From NCBI GenBank assembly GCA_025351485.1, contig JANXVU010000152.1, positions 1-33,222 of the forward strand: a stretch of 33,222 nt of DNA. Reading direction: 5' to 3'. Each line of letters begins with the position of its first letter. The stretch's first letter is position 1. Below, piece by piece: positions 1 through 17,445 of the stretch. The notes below the pieces were generated by a model. The model saw nothing but the letters and a program-made list of their open reading frames with translations. It had not been told where the DNA came from and did no database searches. The stretch comes from Candidatus Eiseniibacteriota bacterium. Its GTDB lineage: Bacteria; Eisenbacteria; RBG-16-71-46; JACRLI01. The translations under genes and the position numbers were made by a program.

Positions 1-788
1 GGCGTTGATTGACCTGATGGCCAGTCGTGACACGCAAGCACTGCGTTTAGCCTGCGGAGTTGAGCCTTGATTCGATCGCCGCTCGCCGGCCGCCGATCAC
101 TTTTTGTGCCGGGAATCGGATCGGTGATGGCTTCCGCGAGGATGTGGGAGGTGGTCACGGTGAGCGCCTCCAGGAGACGCAGCCCGGCCGAGCAACCGTG
201 GCAGCTCGGGAACGGAACCACTCCGTAGAGGATCTGCCCGCAGATGCTGTCGTGGTAACCGCAGAACGACTGGCAGGAGCGCGCCCCTCCCATCACGGCG
301 CACACGCCCGGAGGCAGGAAGATCAGGTAGAAGGTGTCCAGCGTCGGCTGGGGCAGCGAGGCGTTGGAGCCGAGCTGGTTCATCAGCATGTGCTGCAGCG
401 AGTGGTCGGTCAGTGCGTGCCGGGCGCCCCCATGGGCAAGCGTCGCGGTGCCGAGCAGCCGGCCGCCCTCGATCTGGCAGCCGGGCACGCCGTATTCACC
501 CAGTTGTTCCATGGCCGAAGAGCCCAGGAACGCCGGAATGAAGCGGTTCAGGTCATGGGCCAGGTCGCGGTGTGGAAGCCGGGTCCACGCCGTCCCCGAG
601 AACACGGTGAAGACCTTGAGATCGGAAATCACCGGGCCGCCGCGGTAGATCATGTGAGGCGAGGGCGTATAGAGGCCCCCCACGTGCTCCGGCAGGTTTC
701 CGGAAACATGCATCGGAACGATGCGCACCGCATCCGCCGGCGCCGCCGGAACCGAGGCAAGTCCCGGGTCTTCGCGCACGGGTTGCAT
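1..788 (-). CDS. EXORDIUM/phosphate-induced-like secreted protein, 3' end lost or off-window
   Basis: The gene starts at ATG 788-786 after a strong GGAGGGGAGG ribosome site and stays open to the left edge (262 codons). Recognisable pieces are HMIYRGGPVISD near residue 46, SSAMEQLGEYGVPG near 90, FLPPGV, a Cys-rich SCQSFCGYHD, and SHILAEAITDPIPG near 219-232. Together these match the bacterial relatives of plant EXORDIUM proteins, whose function is poorly known. Relatives usually read SHELAEA and continue with GWYDD and a Cys-containing end. Here the first Glu is Ile, and after IPG the sequence turns basic and unlike the family. The last 35 or so codons may be read-through into inserted DNA. 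No clear signal peptide is seen. It lies 43 bp downstream of the AAA-fragment gene, probably in the same transcript. Confidence 0.6.
   Translation of the reverse strand, partial: MQPVREDPGLASVPAAPADAVRIVPMHVSGNLPEHVGGLYTPSPHMIYRGGPVISDLKVFTVFSGTAWTRLPHRDLAHDLNRFIPAFLGSSAMEQLGEYGVPGCQIEGGRLLGTATLAHGGARHALTDHSLQHMLMNQLGSNASLPQPTLDTFYLIFLPPGVCAVMGGARSCQSFCGYHDSICGQILYGVVPFPSCHGCSAGLRLLEALTVTTSHILAEAITDPIPGTKSDRRPASGDRIKAQLRRLNAVLACHDWPSGQST
2..70 (+). CDS. Possible C-terminal fragment of a gene entering from the left
   Basis: Frame 2 of the plus strand is open from the window edge to a TGA at 68-70 and encodes 22 residues ending in ACGVEP. Only about half of its codons end in G or C, against a strong G/C bias in neighbouring genes, so the segment looks foreign. 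It faces the broken end of the EXORDIUM-like gene. The A-rich stretch on the minus strand near 100-112 (CACAAAAAGTGATCGGC) resembles ends of some IS21-type elements. One reading is therefore the right end of an insertion sequence. The piece is too short to identify, and it may also be chance. Confidence 0.2.
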   Translation, partial: ALIDLMASRDTQALRLACGVEP

Positions 789-831: not shown

Positions 832-1356
832 TTAGACATGCGGCGAATTCGACAGGTTCACTCTCCAGACGTCCAGGCTGTCGAGGAGAGTGGGAAGAAG
901 ACTGTCGGTGGGCCGGTCATCATGACCACTTCGAGTGCGAACCTCGTGAATCCCGGCCATCACCCGACAGTGCCTTGGAGCAGCTCCCATCGCCAGGCGG
1001 GCCTGCCCCTCCATCCAGGCCAGAAGCCGCCGCTGGCGGGCCTCGGGTAAGTCTTCGATCGAATCCAGGAACAGGGCCCCGTGTTCCGGCGCACCCTCGT
1101 GCTCCCACATCCAGGGAAGATCCGCGTCGGTGGCAATGAGCCGGCAGTCCGCAGCCAGGAAACTTCCATCCCGGGTGGGGCCGTGCTCGAAGATGAGCCG
1201 GGCCACGCGGGCACGCTCCTCCGGTTCGCCCCCCAACAGCAGGACCGGCACGGCACGGTATCGGGAGCGTTCCAGACGGGTCGTGAAATCTTCCAACCAC
1301 TCCTGGGTCGCCGATCGGATCAGCTCCGGCCGAAAGCCTCGGGCTAGATGAACCAT
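832..1356 (-). CDS. Small stand-alone degenerate NtrC-type AAA fragment
   Basis: This 174-residue protein resembles the first half of a sigma-54-activator AAA+ domain. VPVLLLGGEPEERARVARLI (residues 36-55) sits where Walker A should be but lacks the GxxxxGK[ST] lysine. HGALFLDSIEDLPEARQRRL (92-111) matches the Walker B region, with DS in place of DE. LLDSLDVWRVNLS (157-169) recalls the LYHRLNVFRI segment. ATP binding is therefore doubtful. There is no HTH and no receiver domain. Its start overlaps the end of the upstream secreted-peptide gene by 13 nt, suggesting translational coupling; the ribosome site (GAAGG) is weak. A role as a partner or decoy for the large upstream regulator is speculation. 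Confidence 0.6.
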   Translation of the reverse strand: MVHLARGFRPELIRSATQEWLEDFTTRLERSRYRAVPVLLLGGEPEERARVARLIFEHGPTRDGSFLAADCRLIATDADLPWMWEHEGAPEHGALFLDSIEDLPEARQRRLLAWMEGQARLAMGAAPRHCRVMAGIHEVRTRSGHDDRPTDSLLPTLLDSLDVWRVNLSNSPHV

Positions 1357-1547
1357 GCCTTCAAATACAGAAAGCCCGTGTGAAAGAGCATCCTGCCCAG
1401 GTTGAGGTGGAGTATCTGCGTCGGCGCGAGCTTGAACGCTCCGGGTTTGGGGCTGGTGATCGGGGGCGTATCGTCCGCTCTTGCCCCGGCTGCCGGAACA
1501 AGGATGGAAAGGGCCAGGATCCCGGCGATGATGTAGCGGTTCTTCAT
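1344..1547 (-). CDS. Small secreted peptide (67 aa) with signal sequence
   Basis: The start at ATG 1547-1545 is chosen because GGAGG lies 8-9 nt upstream and a signal peptide follows at once: MKNR, a hydrophobic stretch, then a likely cut after ARA at residues 22-24. The mature part would be about 43 residues, begins DDTPP and has no cysteine or known domain. It is the first gene after the regulator's 359-bp downstream gap and overlaps the next gene. No family was recognised. Because the gene is short, the ribosome site and signal peptide are the main evidence for it. Confidence 0.55.
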   Translation of the reverse strand: MKNRYIIAGILALSILVPAAGARADDTPPITSPKPGAFKLAPTQILHLNLGRMLFHTGFLYLKAWFI

Positions 1548-1621: not shown

Positions 1622-1637
1622 GGCACCGAACGTGCCG
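1622..1637 (-). promoter_or_regulatory. Sigma-54-like promoter, also a palindrome
   Basis: Read on the minus strand, CGGCACGTTCGGTGCC aligns to TGGCACGN4TTGCW with the GG and GC dinucleotides at the correct 12-nt step. It would start transcription about 60 nt upstream of the secreted-peptide gene. The site is also an inverted repeat (GGCAC-N5-GTGCC), so it reads similarly on the plus strand, where no gene follows. The alternative is a protein-binding dyad. Confidence 0.3.
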
Positions 1638-1752
1638 GGGTCGACGGGGACACCTGCGGAGGTGGTTTTGTAGCTCCAATGCCTTTAGCGAAAGGGAGTT
1701 GCGAATTCGCTGCGATCCATCCGAAGACCGCCGGGAAATTCGCAACGAGGAA

Positions 1753-1875
1753 CTACGAGGTCGGAATTCGTAGGAGTCTACGAGGCAGGACGGGCCATGG
1801 TGCGGAGCAACGGGCGTAACGCTCGATGTTTCAAAGGGGTATGGATTCGTAGGGCGACTGGGGAAATACTCGTAG
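1753..1875. promoter_or_regulatory. Cluster of five CTACGA/TCGTAG sites (candidate enhancer)
   Basis: CTACGA occurs at 1753-1758 and 1778-1783, and its complement TCGTAG at 1768-1773, 1847-1852 and 1870-1875. Near matches lie at 1899-1904 and 1907-1912. The 1768-1783 pair forms a perfect dyad with a 4-nt spacer. Another inverted repeat, GTTGCGAATT/AATTCGCAAC, lies at 1698-1707/1737-1746. The 359-bp stretch 1548-1906 holds no convincing gene. The cluster is 115-255 bp upstream of the sigma-54-like promoter, the usual distance for enhancer sites of NtrC-type activators. Confidence 0.4.
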
Positions 1876-1906
1876 CTTTGTTGGGAGCTTCGCAGGAATT
1901 ACGAAT

Positions 1907-4900
1907 CTACGGCTTCATCGGGGATCGCCGCCGGGATTTCTTCGGGTTGAGGACTCCGTGCTTCTTCATGCGGCCGCGTACCGTCCCCTCGCACACTCCC
2001 AGGAGCGCCGCGGCCTTGCTTTGATTCCATCCCGCTTCGACCAGCGCTTCGAGCAGAATCGTTCGCCCGCCCGGATCGGAGGAGACTCGAAGATCCGGAG
2101 TCTCCGCTACCTGCACAACCGCCCCTGCATCCCGCGGCGGCACCAGCACCGGGCCGGACTGATCGATCAGCAGCCGGTCGATCTCATGCTGGAGTTCACG
2201 GACGTTGCCCGGCCAGCGGCGCGACGTCAACCAACCCCGGAGGGCCGGTGAGAGTGCCGGACACGCGACGCGCATGGCAGCTGCGCCCAGGGCCGTGAAG
2301 TGCTCCGCCAGCGGGATCACATCCTCCGGCCGGACACGCAAGGGCGGCACGGAAATCACCTTGCCCTCCAACCGGTGGTAGAGGTCCAGGCGAAACGTCC
2401 CGGCCTCGATCATGGCCTTCAGGTCCCGGTTGGTCGCGGCCACCACGCGGATATCCACGCTGATGGGCGTGATGGTCCCGATCCGCTGGACTTCACCCCG
2501 GTCCAGGACCCGAAGCATCTTGGCCTGCGCGCCCAGGTCCAGGTCCCCGATCTCATCCAGGAAGATCGTCCCGCCGTGGGCCTGCTCAAAGTAGCCGGGC
2601 CCGGCATCCACTTCGCCCACGACCCGCTTGCCGATCCCGAACAACTCGCGCTCGATCAGGCTCGGAGGAAATGCCGAGCAATTCACGGCCACAAAAGGGC
2701 CCTCGGCGCGGCGGCTGCGGTAGTGGAGTCGCCGAGCGAGCTGCTCCTTTCCCACCCCGGTTTCCCCCAGGATGAGAACGGGAAGCTTGTGCGAGGCCGC
2801 GCGGTCGACCTGGTCCAGCACGTCCCGCATCAGCCTGGAAGCAACGATGTAGGGCATCTCCTCGTGCGCGTCCCGGACCTCCTTGCGAAGCACCACGTTT
2901 TCCTTTTCCAGCAACTGGCGCACACGAGCGAGTTCCGCGCGGTCCCGCGCCTGTTCAATGGCCACCGCGATCAGGCTGTTGAATCCCCACAGAAGTCGGC
3001 GATGGATTCCCGTGAAGACGTCTCCGCGCCGCCGGTCGTCGAGATAGACGGCCCCGATGACCCGGCCCTTCGCGCCGCCGGAAAGCAGCACCATGCACAG
3101 CGCCGACTTGATCCCGAGCCGCACCACGCTGGGGCGCTCGGACAGCGGGGATTGAATCCGCGGATCCCCCAGGATCACGGTTTCCCCGGTTTCGGCGGCC
3201 CGCCGGACCGCGCCGAGGCTCATCTCCAGGGCCACATCCAGAACGGCATCGCCCGCCCCGCGCGCCGCGGCAACGCGCAATTCGCCCTCCAGGGAATCCG
3301 AAAGCAGAAGCACGCAGCGTTCCGCGGGCAGGAACTTCAACAGCAGGTCCATGGACTTCTCAAGCAGATCCGGGAGCGAATCCATGGAGTGAACCAGGCT
3401 TGAAAGCTCCAGCAGCATTTCCGCGGGGATTTCGCCGGTCGCGGAGGCGGAAGAAAGCCGGATCACTTCAAACAGCCGATCCGCCGCCCTGCGGCGCAGG
3501 TGGTCCACCCCGAGGCTCTGGTAGGCCACCGCGGCCTCCATGAACGCGGCGCGCGCGTCGGCCCACTTGGCCTGCATCGCGTTCAGGCGGCCGCGCATTT
3601 CCCGCGCCTCCGCCCGTTCCAGCGGCGCGTTCGCGGATTCGCACAACTCCTCGGCCCGTGACAGGGCGGCATGGGCGAGCTTGGCATCCCCGCGAATCGT
3701 CGCCAGCTCGGCGCGCGCAAGGTCCGCGCGGAATTCGACGGCCTTCAGATCCAGCAAGGGCGTGGCCGTGCCCAACTCGCCGAGCAACGACTCCGCCGCA
3801 TCCAGGTTCCCGAGGAAGATGTGGGCCTCGGCCCGGGCAACCTGAAGCTCGCAGTGGTTGCGTATCCCCAGGGATTCGGCCTGCAGCCCGGCGGCCTCTT
3901 CCAGCCATCGCAGCAGGCCCGGACGGTCCCCGCTCTCCGAGAGGAATTTCAGGATCGAGCCCAGGGCGGCTGCGGCCGATCCGGGGGTCTCGTTCTCGCG
4001 CCGCATCCGGTAGGCCCGGCGCATCAGCACGGCGGCACGGCGCGGGTCGCCGGAAAGCCGCGCCGCCTCGGCCCGGGCGCCCAGCACGAATGTGCGATCA
4101 AATTCCGTCAGGTGCGCAAAGTCATCCTCCAGCAGCGCGGCCGCCGTGGCCCATCGGCCGCAGTGCACGACGGTCCCGGCCAGCGCGAGCCTGGCCAGTT
4201 CCGCCTGGCGGGGGATCCCGCCTGCTTCGGCCATCTGCGCCGCCTGCTCGGCGTAGTGCAGGGCCTCCACGTTCCTGAACTGGGCCCTGGAGATGGCGCT
4301 GAGCTGGGCCAGCAGGTTGCTGCGGTGCGAGGCCCAGCCGGGAAGCCCCTCCAGGTCCCGGATGGCCCGCTCTCCGATCGTCCGGGCTTCCTGCAGGCGA
4401 CCCTGGTCGCTGAGCACTCCGAGCAGGTTGACCTGCACGCCCAATCGCACCTGCCGGGACTTTGCGGCCTCCGCGAACTTCGCGGCCTGCTCGAGCGACT
4501 CCGAGGCGGCCTGGAGATGCCGCCGCAGCCACAGGACCACGCCCAGCCGGTTGTGCAGACAGCCCAGGGTGTCGAGCGCCCCGGGCGGCGCCAGGCCGAT
4601 CCCCTCTCGAAAGAATTTCTCGGCTCCGTCCAGCCGATCCGCCGCCCGTTCGATCCAGCCCAGGTCCGCGAGCACTCGCGCATGCTGTTCGGGATTTGCC
4701 TGCGCGGCCTGGAGCGCCCTTTCCAGCCATTCCTTCGCGGCGGCTTCGCGTCCCCTGGAGAAATGCATCCAACCCGTGCGGCGCCACAGGTTCGCGCGGG
4801 CTTCCGAAGGCACGGGAAGCTCCAGCCTCAGCAACAGCGCGCGCGCCTCGTCCACGCCGGCCTCCGCCATCGCCGCGGCAGCGAGAATTTCGTCCAAAAG

Positions 4901-6739
4901 CTCCGAGCGTCCCGCGTCGGCTGGAAGGCAATCCAGGAGCATGGTCCAGAGGGCGGGCGTCCCGGTGGAGCGGGCTTCCCGGAGCAGGATCCCGCGGCAG
5001 CCTTCGAGGTCTCCGGCGGCCGTCGCGAGTTCCGCCCGGGACATCGCCGGGAGCGCGCCGGAAAGTCGGAGCGTGTCGTGGGCAAGTGCGCTCCGGTCGC
5101 TTTTCGGAAGGAGCGAATCCAGGACCTGGCGCACCCTCAGGGGCTCGCGAAGCCATGCTCGGGTCGCGGCGATGGAGAGCGGCGGGCGCAGCGGAGGAGA
5201 ATAGGAGGCCGACTCGCGGAGCGCCCCATCTTCTCCGAGCCAGGTGGCGACCCACAGGAAGTGCCGATCCTCCGCGGCCAGGGACCCCAACCGCTCCACC
5301 AGCGGGTCTGTTTCGGGCCCGGGGCTCCACGCCGCCAGCGCGGCCGGATCGCAGGTGAATCCGGCAGAAGATCGCTTTACGATTCCACGAGCGCGCAGCG
5401 CCCGGGCCAGGGATAGCAACCGCCCGGGGCGCCCCCCGCACTCCTGCATCAGCCGCGCCTCCAGATCTGGACGGCCATGGCCCGGAAATTCCCTTTCCAC
5501 CAGCGCCTGGAGAGAAGCCGGCGGCAATGGCCCAAGCCGGATCAGGCGGGCTGCGGGCGCCACTCGCAGCAGGAACGCGCGGCCAGCCCCGGCCAGCAAC
5601 GATTCGTCAAAGCCGATCCCGAGCGCCGCGGGCGGGAAGTTCCGGAGCCACTCTTCGAGCGCGGCGATTCCGGGCTCGTCCAGCAGGTGCAGGTCGTCCA
5701 GGAGCACCACTTCCTTCGGCTGGCCCAGGACTGCCGCCGGCTCCGCGCTCCCCAGGGACAGGATCCGCGCGCTCTTCTCCCCCAACTGCAGCCGCGCCGC
5801 GACCGCGCGGAGCATGGAACTCCGGCCGGAGCCGCCGGGCCCGGAGAGGCGCACGCTTTCGGGATCCGGGCTGTCCAGGAACTCCAAGAGCCTTCGGAGC
5901 TCTTCTTCGCGGCCGAGGAGCTTTCCCTCGGTGGATCGCCGGCTGAGCTCGGCCCAGGCCGGAAACAGCCGGCGCACTTCGCTGATACTGTTGGGGCGGA
6001 CGTCGGGCCGGGGCGAAAGCATGAGTTCGATCACCTGCTCGAGTTCCGGGTCGGCTGCGCGCAGGGCCTCGCGGTCCCACGAGAAGTCCGGATACGCGCG
6101 CGGATCACCCGGTTCCCAGTTTGCCCCAAAGCACGGCTTGCCGGTCAGGAGCAGATAGATCAGGGCGCCGGCAGAAAAGATGTCAGCCTCGGGCCCGGCC
6201 GGTTCACCCCGGAATACCTCCGGGGCGGTGTATCCCGGAGTGCCGCCGCGTGCTCCATGGCCAGGGGCGCCCGAGAGCCCGAAGTCGGCGAGCTTGAGAT
6301 TGGCGTCGGGAAGAAGCGAGTCGAACAGGATGTTCCGGGGTTTCACGTCCAGGTGGAGCACGCCCTGCGAATGCAGGAACTCCAGCGCGTCCAGGATCTG
6401 CGGAATCCAACGGTCGGCGTCCCTGGGGTCCGCGGGCAGCGACCTCTTTTCCAGCGTGCCGCCCTCGAGAAACTCGAGGGAAAGGAACGCCCTTCCATCG
6501 GCCAGCCGGCCGAAGTCGTGGGCCTCGACCATGTGCGGGTGGCGCAGGGCGACCAGCAGCTCGAACTCGTGACCGAGGCGCGCCCGCGCGCCGATGTCCC
6601 CCCCGGCTTTCAGGATCTTGAGCGCGCGAAGCTCCCCCACGTCCAGATCCCGGGCAAGGTGGACCTCCCCCTCCGCCCCGTCTCCCAGCAGGCGGATCCA
6701 TTCATAGCGGGAAGGGAGCGGCGGGGTGGGGAAAGGCAT
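1907..6739 (-). CDS. Kinase-STAND-TPR-GAF-NtrC AAA+-Fis mega-regulator (1610 aa)
   Basis: Domains in order: Ser/Thr kinase, about 12-260, with Lys41, HLDVKPRN at 129-136 (a non-RD kinase, Leu for Arg) and DFG at 152-154; a STAND/AAA ATPase with Walker A GPGGSGRSS at 300-308 (Arg for the usual Lys) and a VVLLDDLHLLDE Walker B; a long helical TPR-like region to about 1120; a GAF domain about 1130-1270; an NtrC-type AAA+ domain with Walker A GETGVGKE at 1325-1332 and FLDE at 1393-1396; and a Fis-type HTH at about 1572-1595. The GAFTGA loop reads KRVVGEVD (1371-1378), so contact with sigma-54 is uncertain. The frame continues 131 codons upstream, but homology begins at ATG 6739, directly behind a good promoter and without a ribosome site. 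It is presumably a cytoplasmic signal integrator; its input and targets are unknown. Confidence 0.9.
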   Translation of the reverse strand: MPFPTPPLPSRYEWIRLLGDGAEGEVHLARDLDVGELRALKILKAGGDIGARARLGHEFELLVALRHPHMVEAHDFGRLADGRAFLSLEFLEGGTLEKRSLPADPRDADRWIPQILDALEFLHSQGVLHLDVKPRNILFDSLLPDANLKLADFGLSGAPGHGARGGTPGYTAPEVFRGEPAGPEADIFSAGALIYLLLTGKPCFGANWEPGDPRAYPDFSWDREALRAADPELEQVIELMLSPRPDVRPNSISEVRRLFPAWAELSRRSTEGKLLGREEELRRLLEFLDSPDPESVRLSGPGGSGRSSMLRAVAARLQLGEKSARILSLGSAEPAAVLGQPKEVVLLDDLHLLDEPGIAALEEWLRNFPPAALGIGFDESLLAGAGRAFLLRVAPAARLIRLGPLPPASLQALVEREFPGHGRPDLEARLMQECGGRPGRLLSLARALRARGIVKRSSAGFTCDPAALAAWSPGPETDPLVERLGSLAAEDRHFLWVATWLGEDGALRESASYSPPLRPPLSIAATRAWLREPLRVRQVLDSLLPKSDRSALAHDTLRLSGALPAMSRAELATAAGDLEGCRGILLREARSTGTPALWTMLLDCLPADAGRSELLDEILAAAAMAEAGVDEARALLLRLELPVPSEARANLWRRTGWMHFSRGREAAAKEWLERALQAAQANPEQHARVLADLGWIERAADRLDGAEKFFREGIGLAPPGALDTLGCLHNRLGVVLWLRRHLQAASESLEQAAKFAEAAKSRQVRLGVQVNLLGVLSDQGRLQEARTIGERAIRDLEGLPGWASHRSNLLAQLSAISRAQFRNVEALHYAEQAAQMAEAGGIPRQAELARLALAGTVVHCGRWATAAALLEDDFAHLTEFDRTFVLGARAEAARLSGDPRRAAVLMRRAYRMRRENETPGSAAAALGSILKFLSESGDRPGLLRWLEEAAGLQAESLGIRNHCELQVARAEAHIFLGNLDAAESLLGELGTATPLLDLKAVEFRADLARAELATIRGDAKLAHAALSRAEELCESANAPLERAEAREMRGRLNAMQAKWADARAAFMEAAVAYQSLGVDHLRRRAADRLFEVIRLSSASATGEIPAEMLLELSSLVHSMDSLPDLLEKSMDLLLKFLPAERCVLLLSDSLEGELRVAAARGAGDAVLDVALEMSLGAVRRAAETGETVILGDPRIQSPLSERPSVVRLGIKSALCMVLLSGGAKGRVIGAVYLDDRRRGDVFTGIHRRLLWGFNSLIAVAIEQARDRAELARVRQLLEKENVVLRKEVRDAHEEMPYIVASRLMRDVLDQVDRAASHKLPVLILGETGVGKEQLARRLHYRSRRAEGPFVAVNCSAFPPSLIERELFGIGKRVVGEVDAGPGYFEQAHGGTIFLDEIGDLDLGAQAKMLRVLDRGEVQRIGTITPISVDIRVVAATNRDLKAMIEAGTFRLDLYHRLEGKVISVPPLRVRPEDVIPLAEHFTALGAAAMRVACPALSPALRGWLTSRRWPGNVRELQHEIDRLLIDQSGPVLVPPRDAGAVVQVAETPDLRVSSDPGGRTILLEALVEAGWNQSKAAALLGVCEGTVRGRMKKHGVLNPKKSRRRSPMKP

Positions 6740-10381: not shown

Positions 10382-10387
10382 TTGTGT

Positions 10388-10545
10388 GTCCCGCTTGCGC
10401 TCAAGTTCGAGCGGCGATGCCGGCTGTGGGGTCTGGCGCATCTCCTGCTAACTGCTTTTCGCCTTGGACTGCTGAGCCGGCGCCCGCCTCTAGCGGGTGC
10501 AGCGGCATGGACCCTGATAATTTGAAGCCGACCTACGCTCTACGT
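10388..10545 (+). promoter_or_regulatory. Long 5' leader of the surface-protein operon
   Basis: The leader contains a strong hairpin, GCGCCCGC-CTCTA-GCGGGTGC (about 10479-10499), flanked by GCCG/CGGC. No clear Shine-Dalgarno sequence precedes the ATG at 10546. I compared it by eye with cobalamin, c-di-GMP and c-di-AMP riboswitches and 6S RNA and could not match it. A structured regulatory leader is possible. Confidence 0.3.
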
Positions 10546-13419
10546 ATGTCTTCAAGGGCGCGTTGCCCGCAGTCTGTGTCCCGCCAGCCACGGACGGGCC
10601 GCTTGATCGCTTCCATCCTCGCGCTGGGCCTCCTGCTCCTTCGTTTCCAGGTCGCCACCGCCACCATTCTGGATGTTCCTTCCGGCTACGCCACCATCCA
10701 GGCCGCGGTGAGCGCAGCGTCGCCCGGAGATACCGTGCGGGTGGCCGCGGGGACCTTTGGGGAGAACGTTGTGGTCAACCTCCCGCTGGTCCTCCTGGGG
10801 GCCAACGCCGGCCTGGACGGCCGGGGGATCCGCGGCGCGGAAACGGTCGTGGATGCCGCCGGCTCGGGGACTCCGCTCAGGATCACCGCCGCCGGGGTGA
10901 GCGTGGACGGCCTACGGCTGCAGGGCGGTCAGGGCGGCCTCAGCGGCGCCGGCATCGAACTTGGCGGCTCCGCCGGGTCGGTCCTGGTGCTGAACTGCGT
11001 CCTGGCCGACAACTCGACCGGGGCGCTGGCCGAGGGGGCCGGGTCGGCCACCTTCCGGCGAAACCTGTTTGACGCGAACAACCGTCCGGGCCCGCATGGC
11101 GGGACGGGTGTCTCCTCCACCCACTCCATCTCGGTCACCGTGGACGACAATGAGCTTCGCGCGCACTCGCTCGCGGCGCTGGATTTCGAGTTCAGCGGCC
11201 CCTCTTGCCACTCCAACCTCTCGCTGACCGGAAACAGCATCCACAACAACGCGAACGGCGCCATCCTCCTGGGGGCCTCCGGGTGCGGCTTCGCGCGCAA
11301 CGATGTCACGGTCTGCAGCCAGAACGCCGTGGTGCTGGGCGGCGGGTGCAACCACTTGCAGTTCCTGAACAACCGGGTGTTCCTGAACACCGCCGGGCTG
11401 CTGGTCGAGGACTACGGCATGGGCGCCGGCAACAACTCGGACGTCATCGTCTCGAACAACAGTTTCACCGGGAATTCCCTGTACGCCATGGAACTCCAGG
11501 GCGCCTACGACGGAACGCTGTACGCCCGGGACAACTGGTGGGGATCCGTGACCGGCCCGTCCGGGATTGGGGGGAGCGGCTCCGGAGACAAGGTGATGAC
11601 GGACGTGGGGATGTCCGCCGCGCTGTACGGGTGGCGCACGAGCGGAACCGACAACAGTCCTGCCGCGGGCTTCCAGCCGGACGCCGACAATCCGATCTTC
11701 GTGCCGCAGCTGCCGCTCAGCCAGTGCCTGTCCACCAGCCGCCCGTGCCTGTCGCTCCCGATCAACATCCACCGCAGCGACTCCTCGCCCCTGCGCGGCT
11801 TCAGCCTGAACCTGCGCCTGTCGGGAAATCTGCAGCTGTGCTCGGGCCTCTCCAGCATCCAGGAGTTCACCTACATGTTCCAGGGCGGGAACACCACCTT
11901 CCTGGTCACCGACAACGGCGGTGGCTCGTACACCGTCGACTGCACCATCCTGGGGGCCGACTGCGGCGCGAACAATCCGAACGGCACGCTGCTCCTGGCC
12001 AACGTGCGGGCCAACGGCCCCGATGGCTCGGGCACGATATGGGTGTCCGACCTGATCCTGCGCAACTGCGACAACGACTCGGTGCCCACCAGCTCCCGCG
12101 CGGCGTCGGTGGTTCCGATCGATGTGACCCCGCCCGCGGCCATCGCCGACCTGGCCGCCACGCAGGTGAAGAGCGGCAACGACACCGACGGCACGACGAA
12201 GATCCGCCTCACGTGGACTTCGCCCGAGCCCGGCGCCACGGCCCAGGTGTACCGGGCCAAATTCGGCAACTATCCCTGGTACGACAACTCACCGAACTCC
12301 GGCTCCGTGCCCGTGACCCCGTCCTATCCGCCCCCGGCCCCATGGCAGCTCACCGCCGTGAACGCCTCGGGGAGCTCCGAGGAGACGACGAGCCGTGACG
12401 TCTATTTCTACGTGGCGTTCGCCGCGGACGCATGCGGCAACCGCGCCGCGGTGTCGAACAAGACCGGCGGCACGCTCAATTACCACCTGGGTGACGTCAC
12501 CAACGGGGCGGTCGCCGGAACGGGCGACAACGCCGTGAGCCTCGCCGACATCACCTACCTGGGCGCGAACTACGGCGCCTCGCTGCCGGCTTCCAGCCCC
12601 TTGAGCGTGCTGGACGTGGGGCCGACCACCGACGCCACCGTGGATGGCCGGCCGACCACCGACAACGTGCTGGACTTCGAAGACCTCATGATCTTCACCC
12701 TGAACTACAAGACCGTCTCCAAGCCGTCCATGTCCCGGCAGGACGCTACAGCGGACCAGGTGACGCTCCGGGTCGATGGCGGCGCCGAGGCGGGCGGCAC
12801 GCTGCTGGCCACCATGCGCATGACCGGTACCGGGACCATCCACGGCATCTCGACGAGGCTGCGCTGGAACCCCCGGGTGGTGCAACCGATGGGCGCCTCG
12901 GCCGGCCCGTGGCTTTCCTCGCAGGGCGGACTGGCGCTGTCGCCCGCGGGAGGTTCGATGGACGCCGCGGTGCTCGGCTCGCAGTCCGCGGGCCTTTCGG
13001 GCGAGGGCGACCTGGCCACCGTGAGCTTCCGGCGGATCGCGCCGGGGGACCCCGGAATCGAACTCGCCGCGCTCAGCGCCCGCGACGCGAGCAACCGCCC
13101 GGTGACCGTGGGCGCGCAAGGAGGCGCTCCGACTCTTCCGGCCGTCACCATGCTGGAGCCGGTGGCCCCCAACCCGAGCCGCGGGCCTTCCACCGTGCGG
13201 TTCCAACTGGCCCGAGGCGGCTTTACCGACCTGGCGGTCTACTCCGTGGAAGGACGGCGCGTTCGCTCGCTGGAGAGCGGCTCCCGCCCCGCCGGCCGCC
13301 AGCAGGTCTCCTGGGACGGCTCGGATTCGCAGGGACGGCATGTGCCGCCCGGCGTCTACTTTGTCAGGCTCCTGACCGCGGACGGAGTGTACAAGCGCTC
13401 CGTGACCGTGTTGCGTTGA
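10546..13419 (+). CDS. Secreted beta-helix protein with dockerin, cohesin-like modules and FlgD-like tail
   Basis: 957 residues. Signal peptide 1-39 (cut after ATA). A right-handed beta-helix, about 40-375, opens with the pectate-lyase-like YATIQAAVSAASPGDTVRV and includes RDNWWGSVTGPSG. A cohesin-like beta module spans about 393-525 and an FN3-like module about 526-645. A dockerin-like pair of segments follows at 648-677 and 688-722, ending in SLADITYLGANYG and DFEDLMIFTLNY. A second cohesin-like module (about 737-855, LRWNPRVVQ and GDLATVSFR) leads to the FlgD Ig-like/type-A sorting tail (866-957, APNPSRG to GVYFVRLLT). Upstream in-frame starts lack a signal peptide at the right distance, so ATG 10546 is chosen. 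It is likely exported and surface-attached; the beta-helix suggests polysaccharide binding or cleavage, with no catalytic residues assigned. It leads a three-gene operon. Confidence 0.85.
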   Translation: MSSRARCPQSVSRQPRTGRLIASILALGLLLLRFQVATATILDVPSGYATIQAAVSAASPGDTVRVAAGTFGENVVVNLPLVLLGANAGLDGRGIRGAETVVDAAGSGTPLRITAAGVSVDGLRLQGGQGGLSGAGIELGGSAGSVLVLNCVLADNSTGALAEGAGSATFRRNLFDANNRPGPHGGTGVSSTHSISVTVDDNELRAHSLAALDFEFSGPSCHSNLSLTGNSIHNNANGAILLGASGCGFARNDVTVCSQNAVVLGGGCNHLQFLNNRVFLNTAGLLVEDYGMGAGNNSDVIVSNNSFTGNSLYAMELQGAYDGTLYARDNWWGSVTGPSGIGGSGSGDKVMTDVGMSAALYGWRTSGTDNSPAAGFQPDADNPIFVPQLPLSQCLSTSRPCLSLPINIHRSDSSPLRGFSLNLRLSGNLQLCSGLSSIQEFTYMFQGGNTTFLVTDNGGGSYTVDCTILGADCGANNPNGTLLLANVRANGPDGSGTIWVSDLILRNCDNDSVPTSSRAASVVPIDVTPPAAIADLAATQVKSGNDTDGTTKIRLTWTSPEPGATAQVYRAKFGNYPWYDNSPNSGSVPVTPSYPPPAPWQLTAVNASGSSEETTSRDVYFYVAFAADACGNRAAVSNKTGGTLNYHLGDVTNGAVAGTGDNAVSLADITYLGANYGASLPASSPLSVLDVGPTTDATVDGRPTTDNVLDFEDLMIFTLNYKTVSKPSMSRQDATADQVTLRVDGGAEAGGTLLATMRMTGTGTIHGISTRLRWNPRVVQPMGASAGPWLSSQGGLALSPAGGSMDAAVLGSQSAGLSGEGDLATVSFRRIAPGDPGIELAALSARDASNRPVTVGAQGGAPTLPAVTMLEPVAPNPSRGPSTVRFQLARGGFTDLAVYSVEGRRVRSLESGSRPAGRQQVSWDGSDSQGRHVPPGVYFVRLLTADGVYKRSVTVLR

Positions 13420-13432
13420 GGAAGGATCGTCC

Positions 13433-15610
13433 GTGAAGAACTCCCACGCCACTTCCCGTCTGCCGGCCCTGATGCTGGCCCTGCTCGCGCTGGTCGCCTG
13501 CGCCGGGGTCTCCGCGGCCGCCACGGGCGTCAAGGTGGCCCTGCAGCCGGCCCTGACCTCGGTTTCGCCGGGAGACACGTTCTATCTGGACATCAACGTC
13601 ACCCGCGCCGGGTCGGCGTTCAACGGCTACACGGCCGTGATCGGGTTCGATCCCTCGGTGCTGCAGTTCCTGCCCACCTCCCCGCTCAGCCAGCAGGAAG
13701 GCGCGCTGATGACCGGGGCCTGCGGGAACACGTTCCACCAGTTCACCGCCGGCGCGAGCCAACTCGGGATCGACCACTCGCTTTTGTGCAACGGCGTTTC
13801 GCTCACCGGCCCGGGGCAGGTGTACCGGCTGCGGTTCAAGGCCCTGGCCGGCCTCACCACCACCCAGGTGCGCTTCCTCTCCGGGCTCCAGTTCTACAAG
13901 GCGGGCGTGGCGGTCAATCCCGATTCGTCCGTGGACGCCACCGTGCAGCTTCCGAGCTTCCCCATCACCGCCTCCGCCGGCGCGGGCGGCTCGATCACGC
14001 CTTCGGGCACGATCAACGTGGTCGATGGCGGGGGCCAGGCCTTCACCATCGCCCCGAACACCGGCTTCCATTTGGTGGACGTGCTGGTGGACGGCTCCAG
14101 CGTGGGCGCGGTCCCGAGCTACACCTTCACCAACGTCCATGCCGCGCACACGATTTCGGCCAGCTTCGCGGCGAACACTTTCACCATCATCGCCACCGCG
14201 GGCTCGGGCGGCCTTATCTCGCCCTCCGGGGCGGTGAGCGTGAACCAGGGCGCGAGCCAGGTGTTCACCATTTCGCCTGATCCGGGCCACCACGTGGTGG
14301 ATGTCCAGGTGGACGGCCTGAGCGTGGGAGCGGTCACCTCCTACACCTTTAACAACGTGCAGGCGGACCACGCCATCTCGGCCACCTTCGCGATTCCTAC
14401 CTTCACCATCACGGCCAGCGCGGGCGCCAACGGCTCCATCACTCCCTCGGGCGCGGTCGGGGTGAGTTTCGGCGGGAGCCAGGTCTTCACCATGATGCCG
14501 GCCGCCGGCTATCACGTGCTGGACGTGCTCGTGGACGGGGTCTCGGTGGGCGCCGTGACGAGCTACACCTTCAACAGCGTAAGCGCGAACCACACCATTG
14601 CCGTCACCTTCGCGATCAACGTGTACACGATCACCGCCAGCGCCGGCGCCAACGGATCCATCACGCCCTCGGGCGCGGTCCCAGTGAATTTCGGGGGGAG
14701 CCAGACCTTCACCATGACGCCGGCCACCGGGCACCACGTGCTGGATGTGCTGGTGGACGGGGCCTCGGTGGGCGCGGTGACGAGCTACGCCTTCAGCAGC
14801 GTGAACGCGAACCACACGATTTCCGTCACCTTCGCGATCAACGTGTACACCATCACCGCCGGCGCCGGGGCCAACGGAAGCATCTCCCCCTCGGGCGCGG
14901 TGGCGGTCCCGCACGGCGGCAGCCAGGCGTTCACCGTCACCCCGGATGCCCACTACCACGTGACCGGGGTCAAGGTGGACGGCTCGACAGTCGGGGCCGT
15001 TCTGGGTTATACTTTTTCGAACGTGATCGGCAACCACACCATTTCGGCCACCTTCGGGATCGACTCGCTGACCGTGACGGCCACCGCTGGGCCGGACGGA
15101 TCCATCAGCCCGGCGGGGCCGGTGGCGGTTCCCTACGGAGCGAACCGCGGCTTCCTGATCACGCCGAATGCCGGGTTCCACGTCTCGGACGTGCTGCTGG
15201 ACGGGATTTCGGTGGGGCCGGTGCCCCAATACGCGTTCACCTACACGCTGAGCGCGGTCGCGGCCGACCACACCCTCCAGGCCCTGTTCGACGCCGGCAC
15301 GCCGGTGGGGGTCGAGGGCGATCCCTCCACGGCGGGGTCGCTCCGGGTGCGGGCCTTCCCGAACCCCTCGAGGGGCGCGGTCGAGCTCACGGTCCGTTCG
15401 CCGGGGCCGGGAACGCAGATTTTGGAAGTGTTCGACATGACCGGCCGCAGCGTCCGCCGCCTGGAGAGCGGCTCGTACCTGGCCGGCATGAGGAGAGTGG
15501 CCTGGGATGGCCGGGATAAATCCGGTTCCCGAGTAGCTTCGGGGATCTACCAGGTATTGCTGACGTCCGGAAGCATGCGCGCCCGGACACGGATCACTCT
15601 ACTGCGCTAG
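13433..15610 (+). CDS. Secreted cohesin-like protein with six 74-residue InlB-type repeats and FlgD-like tail
   Basis: 725 residues from GTG 13433, behind GAGGAAGG and 13 nt after the previous gene. Signal peptide 1-29. A cohesin-like domain, about 33-172, shows SVSPGDTFYLDINV, YTAVIGFDPSVLQFL and GQVYRLRFKAL. Six repeats of exactly 74 residues start at 176, 250, 324, 398, 472 and 546. Each runs [FYL]T[IV]TA.AG..GSI.PSG, then a GF/YHV.DVLVDG.SVGAV turn, then HTI.ATF, matching divergent InlB B-repeat (bacterial repeat) domains. The FlgD-like tail runs about 633-725 (FPNPSRG to SGIYQVLL). It is likely an extended surface stalk that displays a cohesin, a possible partner for the dockerins of the flanking genes. 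Confidence 0.85.
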   Translation: MKNSHATSRLPALMLALLALVACAGVSAAATGVKVALQPALTSVSPGDTFYLDINVTRAGSAFNGYTAVIGFDPSVLQFLPTSPLSQQEGALMTGACGNTFHQFTAGASQLGIDHSLLCNGVSLTGPGQVYRLRFKALAGLTTTQVRFLSGLQFYKAGVAVNPDSSVDATVQLPSFPITASAGAGGSITPSGTINVVDGGGQAFTIAPNTGFHLVDVLVDGSSVGAVPSYTFTNVHAAHTISASFAANTFTIIATAGSGGLISPSGAVSVNQGASQVFTISPDPGHHVVDVQVDGLSVGAVTSYTFNNVQADHAISATFAIPTFTITASAGANGSITPSGAVGVSFGGSQVFTMMPAAGYHVLDVLVDGVSVGAVTSYTFNSVSANHTIAVTFAINVYTITASAGANGSITPSGAVPVNFGGSQTFTMTPATGHHVLDVLVDGASVGAVTSYAFSSVNANHTISVTFAINVYTITAGAGANGSISPSGAVAVPHGGSQAFTVTPDAHYHVTGVKVDGSTVGAVLGYTFSNVIGNHTISATFGIDSLTVTATAGPDGSISPAGPVAVPYGANRGFLITPNAGFHVSDVLLDGISVGPVPQYAFTYTLSAVAADHTLQALFDAGTPVGVEGDPSTAGSLRVRAFPNPSRGAVELTVRSPGPGTQILEVFDMTGRSVRRLESGSYLAGMRRVAWDGRDKSGSRVASGIYQVLLTSGSMRARTRITLLR
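13958..15292 (+). repeat. Six tandem 222-bp coding repeats
   Basis: Units begin at 13958, 14180, 14402, 14624, 14846 and 15068, each 222 bp (74 codons). Units 3 to 5 are the most alike at DNA level, sharing long runs around the VYTITA and SVGAVTSY codons. The last unit carries a small insertion near its end. This suggests recent internal duplication or gene conversion. Confidence 0.9.
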
Positions 15611-15628
15611 TCCGAGAGATTCTCGGAC
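15610..15628 (+). other. Intercistronic perfect hairpin
   Basis: GTCCGAGA-GAT-TCTCGGAC forms an 8-bp stem with a 3-nt loop, starting at the last base of the preceding stop codon. There is no U-tract, so mRNA stability or differential expression within the operon is more likely than termination. Confidence 0.5.
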
Positions 15629-15642
15629 CTGCTGGAGGCCGC

Positions 15643-17445
15643 GTGTTGAATTCCCCTAAGTCTCGAATCGCCGGAATCTTTGCCGGAGCGCTGGCTCTGG
15701 CACTTGTGCTCACCGGCAGGGCCGTGGCGCAGGACACCGTCGCCGCCACGTTCCAACCCACCGACTGCATCTCCACCGTTCACACCTGTGTCTCGGTGCC
15801 GGTGGTCTTCAGTCGAACCGACACCACCGGCATGCGTGGATACAGCGTCACCCTCCAGCTTAGCGCCAACCTGGCGCTGTGCGGGAGCATCACCCGCGGC
15901 TCGTACCTGACCTCGGCCAACCCGAACACCAAGTTCATCGTGACCGACCTGGGCGGGGGCTCGTACCTCGTGGACGAGGTCATTCTGGGGGTGCCCTGCG
16001 GCGCGACCGGCAGCGGCACGCTGTTCACCATTCCCCTGACCAGTTCCTCGCCGGGCGGCATCGGCACGGTCAGCATCACCTCGGTCACCGCGCGCAATTG
16101 CGACAACGATTCCGTTCCGGCCTTCGCCGGCCTCGCCGGCTCGATCAAGATCGACAACGTCCCGCCCGCGGCCGTCACCAACCTGGCCTCCTCCCAGGTG
16201 AAGTCCGGAAACGATCCCGACAGCACCACCCGGGTGACGCTTACGTTCACCAACCCCGAGGCGGGCACTTCGATTTCAATTTACCGGGCCGGGTACGGCA
16301 GCTACCCGACCTACGCAGGCGGCTCGGTTCCCGCCGCCCCCACGGCCTATCCGGCTTCCGGTCCGTGGGCGCTGACCGGCGTTTCCGCCACCGGCCAGAC
16401 CGACAAGACCCCCGCGCGCAACTTCTACTACTTCGTGGCCATCACCCGGGATTCGTGCGACAACGCCACGGTGTCCAACCTCACTTCGGGCACGCTGAAC
16501 TACTTCCTGGGCGACTACGCCAACGGCGTTTCCCCCGGGAGCGGCGACAACGCGGTGAACACCACGGACCTGTCCCTGCTGGGCGCCCACTACGGGCTCT
16601 CCGGCGTAGCGGTCGCCCCTTACAGCTATCTGGACGTGGGTCCGACCACCAACCGCTCGGTCAACTCGCGCCCCGTGCCCGACACCAAGATCGGATTCGA
16701 AGACCTGATCCTGCTCTCCATCAACTTTGAAACCGTGAGCAAGCCGTCGATGGCCCGGGACGAAGCCCTGCCCGCCGGCAGCGACGAGCTCTCACTGCGG
16801 CTCGTGGGCGATGCGCCGGTGGGCGGCGTGCTGCGCGCTGCCATCGGCATGCGCGGCACCGGCCACATCCAGGGCCTGAGCGCCCGCCTGCGCTGGAACC
16901 CGGCGGCGGTCACGCCGAGCGGGATCTCCGCCGGCGAACTCCTGGAAAGCCAGGGCGGCGTTGCCCTGTCCGCGGAACCGGGCGTGGTGGACGCCGTTCT
17001 CCAGGGCGTTTCGCGCCGCGGGCTGACCGGCGAAGGAACCCTGGCCTTGGTCTCCTTCCGCCGCATCGCCGAAGGCGACCCGGGACTTTCCCTGGCCTCG
17101 GTGGACGCGCGCGACTCGCGCAACCAGACGGTGGAACTGGGGATGCTGCAGCCGAACGTTCGTCCCGCGGTGACCGGGCTTGCCCCCGCCTCTCCGAATC
17201 CCTCGCGGGGCGGAGCGACGTTGCGCTACAGCCTGGCGAAGGCGGGCCAGGCCGACCTCGCGATCTTCTCCGTGGACGGCCGCAAGGTGCGCCAGCTCGC
17301 CTCCGGTTCGCGGGGCGCAGGCTCTTACGAAGCGGCCTGGAACGGCCGGGACAGTGGCGGCCGGCCGGTGGCACCGGGCATCTACTACGCCCGGCTGCAG
17401 ACGCAACAGGGAAGCTTTACGAGGACCCTGACCCTGCTCAACTAG
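15643..17445 (+). CDS. Secreted dockerin/cohesin-like protein with FlgD-like tail, paralogue of the beta-helix protein
   Basis: 600 residues. GTG 15643 and TTG 15646 both follow GGAGG; TTG has the better spacing. The signal peptide ends near AVAQ (residue 30). From residue 38 on it matches the beta-helix protein module for module: cohesin-like about 40-170 (CVSVPVVF, GYSVTLQLSANLALC, RNCDNDSVP), FN3-like 172-285, dockerin-like segments 289-318 and 329-363, a second cohesin-like module about 381-500 (LRWNPAAVTPSG, GTLALVSFR), and tail 510-600 (SPNPSRGG to GIYYARLQT). It is in effect the beta-helix protein without its helix. Last gene of the operon, followed by a terminator. A role in surface-complex assembly is inferred. 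Confidence 0.85.
   Translation: MLNSPKSRIAGIFAGALALALVLTGRAVAQDTVAATFQPTDCISTVHTCVSVPVVFSRTDTTGMRGYSVTLQLSANLALCGSITRGSYLTSANPNTKFIVTDLGGGSYLVDEVILGVPCGATGSGTLFTIPLTSSSPGGIGTVSITSVTARNCDNDSVPAFAGLAGSIKIDNVPPAAVTNLASSQVKSGNDPDSTTRVTLTFTNPEAGTSISIYRAGYGSYPTYAGGSVPAAPTAYPASGPWALTGVSATGQTDKTPARNFYYFVAITRDSCDNATVSNLTSGTLNYFLGDYANGVSPGSGDNAVNTTDLSLLGAHYGLSGVAVAPYSYLDVGPTTNRSVNSRPVPDTKIGFEDLILLSINFETVSKPSMARDEALPAGSDELSLRLVGDAPVGGVLRAAIGMRGTGHIQGLSARLRWNPAAVTPSGISAGELLESQGGVALSAEPGVVDAVLQGVSRRGLTGEGTLALVSFRRIAEGDPGLSLASVDARDSRNQTVELGMLQPNVRPAVTGLAPASPNPSRGGATLRYSLAKAGQADLAIFSVDGRKVRQLASGSRGAGSYEAAWNGRDSGGRPVAPGIYYARLQTQQGSFTRTLTLLN

Follow-up and report, generated by a model that had tools for sequence, protein, structure and literature searches.

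A putative enhancer and sigma-54-type promoter between a kinase-fused activator gene and a secreted-peptide operon in Candidatus Eiseniibacteriota

The closest described systems to the locus reported here are those of the enhancer-binding proteins NtrC, NifA and PspF, which it resembles in a AAA+ domain with Walker motifs, a Fis-type helix-turn-helix (HTH), the presence of rpoN in the genome and a dyad placed ~115-147 bp upstream of a GG-N10-GC element. It differs from them in that a kinase, a STAND-like AAA_16 domain and TPR repeats are fused in front of the activator, and in that the GAFTGA loop is replaced, by NVAT[G/D]V in related loci and by RVVGEV in the DNA studied here. In a large survey, changes of the central Phe and Thr of this loop mostly abolished sigma-54 activation (PMC3162934). 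A Phe-less altered loop is also carried by the activator DVUA0100 (GVATGV) of Desulfovibrio vulgaris, for which the relevant passages of PMC4641369 give a sigma-54 regulon with adjacent promoters, both predicted by comparative genomics; it targets operons for type III secretion, and those passages describe no dead AAA+ paralogue, unlike our locus, where the loop is changed further since Thr is missing as well. A shortened activator in a target operon is known from Rhodobacter sphaeroides, where FleQ switches on the operon encoding FleT, a protein without sensor and DNA-binding domains that then forms a complex with FleQ (PMC7277832; PMC3162934). Co-expressed partners that tune an activator complex are further found in HrpR/HrpS-HrpV and VnfA1/VnfA3/VnfZ, although VnfZ is not an activator-derived AAA+ protein (PMC9542535) like the one described below.

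The DNA analyzed here, termed the window, is a stretch of 33,222 nucleotides from a Candidatus Eiseniibacteriota genome. All genes around the finding lie on the minus strand, and a gap of 359 bp separates the regulator gene from that of a small secreted peptide (Table 1). Sixteen related loci from the same order and class share this layout, in which the regulator is followed by a gap of 222-303 bp, the gene of a small secreted peptide and, usually, that of a degenerate AAA+ protein (adjacent or one ORF on), so that the compared set holds 17 regulator-peptide gaps, and this cassette recurs in four families of the phylum. With a probability of roughly 0.78, we consider that the whole is best explained if the window gap (1547-1906) contains a sigma-54 promoter that depends on an enhancer and is driven by the adjacent regulator.

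Table 1. Features of the window at the regulator-peptide gap and its flanking genes
Feature	Position	Strand	Evidence or remark
Third ORF of putative operon, cut off at contig edge	3..839	-	No family match
Mini-AAA, 174-aa degenerate sigma-54-activator AAA+ domain	832..1356	-	Translation, Pfam, alignment, model, structure search
Small peptide, 67 aa, signal-peptide-like N-terminus (MKNRYIIAGILALSILVPAAGARADD...)	1344..1547	-	ORF translation
-24/-12 sigma-54-type element GGCACGTTCGGTGC	1623..1636	-	Matrix score; 16 relatives have an element at the equivalent place
Degenerate dyad TAGTTCCTCGTTGCGA, one core mismatch	1740..1755	-	119 bp ahead of -24 GG
CTACGA half-site overlapping degenerate dyad	1753..1758	+	Exact motif match
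Proposed primary enhancer (UAS), TCGTAG-N4-CTACGA = TCGT-N8-ACGA, TCGTAGGAGTCTACGA	1768..1783	.	Dyad conserved in relatives; unique in genome
Lone CTACGA half-site	1847..1852	-	Exact motif match
Lone CTACGA half-site	1870..1875	-	Exact motif match
Possible secondary dyad TCGTAATTCCTGCGA, N7 spacing	1890..1904	-	Spacer-7 row of spacer scan
Regulator gene, ~1610 aa	1907..6739	-	Translation, Pfam, AAA alignment

The regulator, which we infer to start at 6739 within a frame open to 7132, has the domain order Ser/Thr kinase, AAA_16, TPR, GAF, sigma-54-type AAA+ and Fis HTH. This architecture is common to the window (family f1) and four of the relatives scanned (f2, f3, f8), two of which are cut before the HTH. 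The AAA+ domain is a Sigma54_activat match (PF00158, E 4e-55) with Walker A GETGVGK and Walker B GGTIFLDEI. A first-pass annotation of this DNA had named a Fis-HTH regulator just upstream with an altered GAFTGA loop; Pfam confirms the HTH_8/Fis domain (PF02954, E 1.4e-5) and the alignment places RVVGEV at the loop. Most relatives with the promoter carry NVAT[G/D]V or a close form, and the other activators of this genome mostly keep GAFTGA or a slightly altered form, for instance GSFTGA. Among cassette regulators only the window member has lost both sigma-54-contacting residues of the loop, Phe and Thr, and it is the most divergent cassette member in loop, dyad-to-promoter spacing (147 bp) and place in the tree, where its AAA+ domain groups on long branches with a paralogue of its own genome on C25 rather than with the NVAT[G/D]V regulators. 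That paralogue (L075, G000:C25, 2042-3022) is a second activator of the genome without GAFTGA, having the loop EGGSGA; it has no peptide or mini-AAA gene downstream, and a BshC-like ORF, recognized by eye, lies there. The altered loop had been read in the first-pass annotation as speaking against classical sigma-54 use. We do not follow that reading, because the NVAT[G/D]V relatives keep the -24/-12 promoter and nearly all have rpoN, with a precedent in the GVATGV activator and its predicted sigma-54 regulon (PMC4641369). The relatives thus argue that sigma-54 use survives the loss of the loop Phe, and we infer that it may extend to the window regulator despite the loss of Thr too.

The promoter-like palindrome, GG-N10-GC, that had been reported to face the peptide operon was recovered at 1636-1623, in the GGCAC context, oriented in operon direction and 75 bp ahead of the peptide start. 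Its general form GGCAY-N7-GY precedes the peptide gene in 17/17 gaps, in 16 of them within 35-110 bp, while 300 shuffle sets gave a mean of 0.39 and a maximum of 3. Such an element also occurs somewhere in 260 bp in 10/27 control regions lying downstream of the genes of other activators, so that it is the placement ahead of the peptide start that is informative. A promoter matrix was trained on the gaps of 15 relatives, and leave-one-out versions ranked the assigned promoter first in 15/15 training gaps. At 10.4 bits the window promoter is the best match in its gap, and sites at this level number 5 over both strands of the 33 kb window. The element is nearly palindromic, and the opposite-strand promoter was rejected at 4.3 vs. 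10.4 bits, as was an alternative candidate at 1607-1594 (4.0 bits). The genome encodes RpoN on C170 (E 2e-62), and rpoN was found in 45/47 genomes of the phylum. The gap would then contain an enhancer and a sigma-54 promoter, and the neighbouring regulator is their most likely user.

Five exact CTACGA/TCGTAG copies in 123 bp, against a chance expectation of about 0.06, with one pair forming a perfect dyad, were the starting claim for this gap. The recount agrees, with copies at 1753(+), 1768(-), 1778(+), 1847(-) and 1870(-) within 1753-1875, and so does the genome-wide density (1682 copies in 3.44 Mb, which predicts 0.06 per 123 bp). The probability of four more copies near a given one is ~4e-7; however, the hexamer was picked post hoc, so that the cluster on its own is only moderately strong, namely moderately unlikely within 33 kb at about 0.02 by our own estimate after correcting for ~2080 hexamers. 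The perfect dyad at 1768-1783 begins 147 bp ahead of the -24 GG and is the sole exact copy in the whole genome, near-matches with up to 2 mismatches being at control level (137 vs. 141).

None of the 16 related loci has CTACGA as its motif; their gaps instead carry TCG[C/T]-N8-[G/A]CGA. What relatives with this gene order retain is therefore a dyad at a conserved place and not the hexamer. Counting the window, 17 copies of TCGY-N8-RCGA occur in 13/17 gaps, compared with 0-3 at any other spacer from 0 to 20 and a mean of 0.75 (max 3) in shuffled gaps, though the consensus was taken from the same gaps before counting and the counts are not fully independent, since the f2 gaps are related and many relatives belong to one family. 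The N8 peak is absent in 27 control regions that follow the genes of other activators (3 copies in 7020 bp). Of the 13 gaps having an exact dyad, 10 place its start 113-117 bp upstream of the -24 GG, with L061 (101 bp), L074 (127 bp) and the window as outliers; L063 and L066 have one-mismatch dyads 117 bp from the promoter, and L068 and L072 have the promoter and no dyad of the TCGY-N8-RCGA type. What carries the enhancer argument is that the counts peak sharply at one spacer and that the distance to the promoter is fixed, and the conserved order and spacing in relatives bear out the earlier remark that the sites lie at enhancer distance. By this comparison the conserved unit is the dyad, mostly TCGC/GCGA in relatives, and CTACGA was dropped as a conserved motif. 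The degenerate dyad of the window sits close to the relatives' dyad position and the possible secondary dyad lies directly past the regulator stop codon. Three window half-sites are left without explanation, which counts against the enhancer reading, as do the two relatives with the promoter and no such dyad and the divergence of the window member in loop, spacing and tree position.

The 67-aa peptide ORF overlaps the next ORF by 13 nt, which in turn overlaps the third by 8 nt; these overlaps make the arrangement operon-like, in line with the secreted-peptide operon named by the first-pass annotation. That annotation missed that the second gene, judged from its translation, is a AAA+ domain derived from sigma-54 activators, here called mini-AAA. 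Its kinship is seen in a Pfam PF00158 match, in a profile match to PDB FleQ (E 8e-21) and in Foldseek matches to FleQ/PspF (E ~1e-7) of the AlphaFold2 model (pLDDT 78.5, pTM 0.77), the best structural matches being the AAA+ domains of FleQ, PspF, FlrC and NtrC1. Across the 18 aligned members, the Walker A motif, catalytic Glu, sigma-contact loop, Arg finger and HTH expected of a functional enhancer-binding protein are missing or unconserved. Aligned with the regulators, they show GGTxxxR in place of GExGTGK, with loss of the Walker A Lys; L063, L068 and L074 still have Glu at the corresponding place in Walker B, and none keeps Walker A. These losses set mini-AAA apart from FleT, which is described as a sigma-54 activator. 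HrpV, unlike mini-AAA, is not an activator-derived AAA+ protein. The family (E < 1e-30) counts 18 copies in 17/47 phylum genomes, from families f1, f2, f3 and f8, and forms a single clade with 99/98 support on long branches, so that its parent among the activators is not fixed. Some sister pairs (L065/L069, L068/L072) match between the mini-AAA and regulator trees, which suggests that the two were inherited together. Mini-AAA probably acts on the regulator's ring. In L085 (G004:C117) a mini-AAA gene lies directly upstream of a receiver-domain activator, outside the usual layout.

Homology searches found no homologues of the third operon protein. Near its end (window 1-110) this ORF changes character, from ITDPIPGT to KSDRRPASG, perhaps as an artefact of the contig end or a rearrangement. 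A P[S/T]GG-like motif opens the mature peptide in many relatives and is weaker in the window. L066 (G001, 3710-4219) has an extra secreted protein of ~270 aa between the peptide and mini-AAA genes, and in L062 (from ~4340), L066, L067 and L083, all of f2, a degenerate receiver-like ORF (LLLSARPEAH...VRVARRPVRAL...LVLVDL) lies downstream of mini-AAA.

A strict composite of dyad and promoter gave 27 hits over 47 genomes. The clear intergenic promoters among them all belong to cassettes, namely to the gaps of G006, G007, G012 and G016, and the remaining hits lie mostly inside long open frames, as judged by stop-free frame and position. One intergenic dyad outside the cassette, TTCGCCATTATCGGCGAA at G011:C124:35084-35209 (L222/L235), is accompanied by a -24/-12-like element. 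A looser composite showed a ~2-fold excess over control in family f2, to which we attach no meaning because its listed hits were unsorted as to coding or intergenic position. The perfect dyad has no second copy in the window genome and the strict intergenic hits are nearly all cassettes, which fits a dedicated, local regulator.

Under the enhancer-dependent scheme, a regulator dimer would bind TCGT-N8-ACGA at 1768-1783, helped by the half-sites and the degenerate dyad, assemble its AAA+ ring and, by DNA looping, open RNA polymerase-sigma54 at 1636-1623. This would switch on the small secreted peptide, the catalytically dead AAA+ paralogue and, here, the third protein. The dead paralogue would most likely enter or cap the regulator's AAA+ ring and tune it, as feedback or as a partner subunit. 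Sequence and comparison support the dyad, the promoter, their conserved order and spacing, the gene order and the loss of catalytic motifs; that the regulator is the protein binding the dyad, that sigma-54 acts at the promoter and that the paralogue has this role are what the scheme would add. More tentatively, and with some doubt on our part, the locus might represent a phylum-specific cassette in which an ATPase-dead AAA+ copy joins the activator ring to inhibit or tune it, possibly offsetting the altered loop of a kinase-fused activator whose own enhancer drives the secreted peptide and that copy. The related NVAT[G/D]V/RVVGEV activators, all of them next to a conserved enhancer and -24/-12 promoter of their own, are a natural series in which to ask how much change of the GAFTGA loop sigma-54 activation can tolerate. 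The cassette also suggests that AAA+ activators may be controlled in a new way, through an ATPase-dead paralogue expressed with them, and it connects a family of small secreted peptides with regulation by sigma-54 in a phylum that has been little studied.

The dyads could alternatively be intrinsic terminators or RNA hairpins that end the regulator transcript, given that they lie 50-75 bp past the regulator stop in most relatives and that the complementary stems are longer in L069, L081 and L082. Symmetry is nevertheless confined to the 4-bp cores, flanking and inner positions pairing at 0.07-0.53, and most gaps show no consistent T-run after the dyad, for which reasons we predict a DNA-binding site rather than a hairpin. 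A terminator would not preserve the 8-base core spacing or the 113-117 bp to the promoter, and a terminator scan found nothing at the window dyad; the hairpin reading, its flanks not pairing, was set aside as quite improbable. That the CTACGA copies are a functionless chance cluster seems very improbable to us: the post hoc choice of the hexamer and its lack of conservation in relatives would speak for chance, and the conserved spacing and position of the dyad, seen in the spacer scan, largely refute it.

It is also conceivable that site and operon are real and that the RVVGEV regulator works here on sigma-70 polymerase in the manner of TyrR/VpsR, or as a repressor. The combined loss of Phe and Thr, peculiar to the window among cassette regulators, and the survey of loop changes (PMC3162934) point that way, but the -24/-12 element is kept as the best such site in the gap, a scan found no sigma-70-like promoter in the region, and the intact Walker A and B would be needless for a non-remodelling regulator, so we regard this as unlikely. 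With ~22 strong sigma-54-activator domains in the genome, another Fis-type activator might instead bind the sites, the neighbouring regulator being a bystander. This we find improbable, as dyad and promoter follow this regulator type and gene order across families, the strict composite occurs elsewhere almost only in long open frames, and a dyad unique in the genome is what a dedicated local regulator would have. The comparison thus sides with the first-pass annotation in making the adjacent regulator the obvious candidate binder.

Further along the window (10384-17445), three large secreted-looking proteins are encoded in a row, with beta-helix, InlB-like repeat, cohesin-like and FlgD_ig C-terminal domains.
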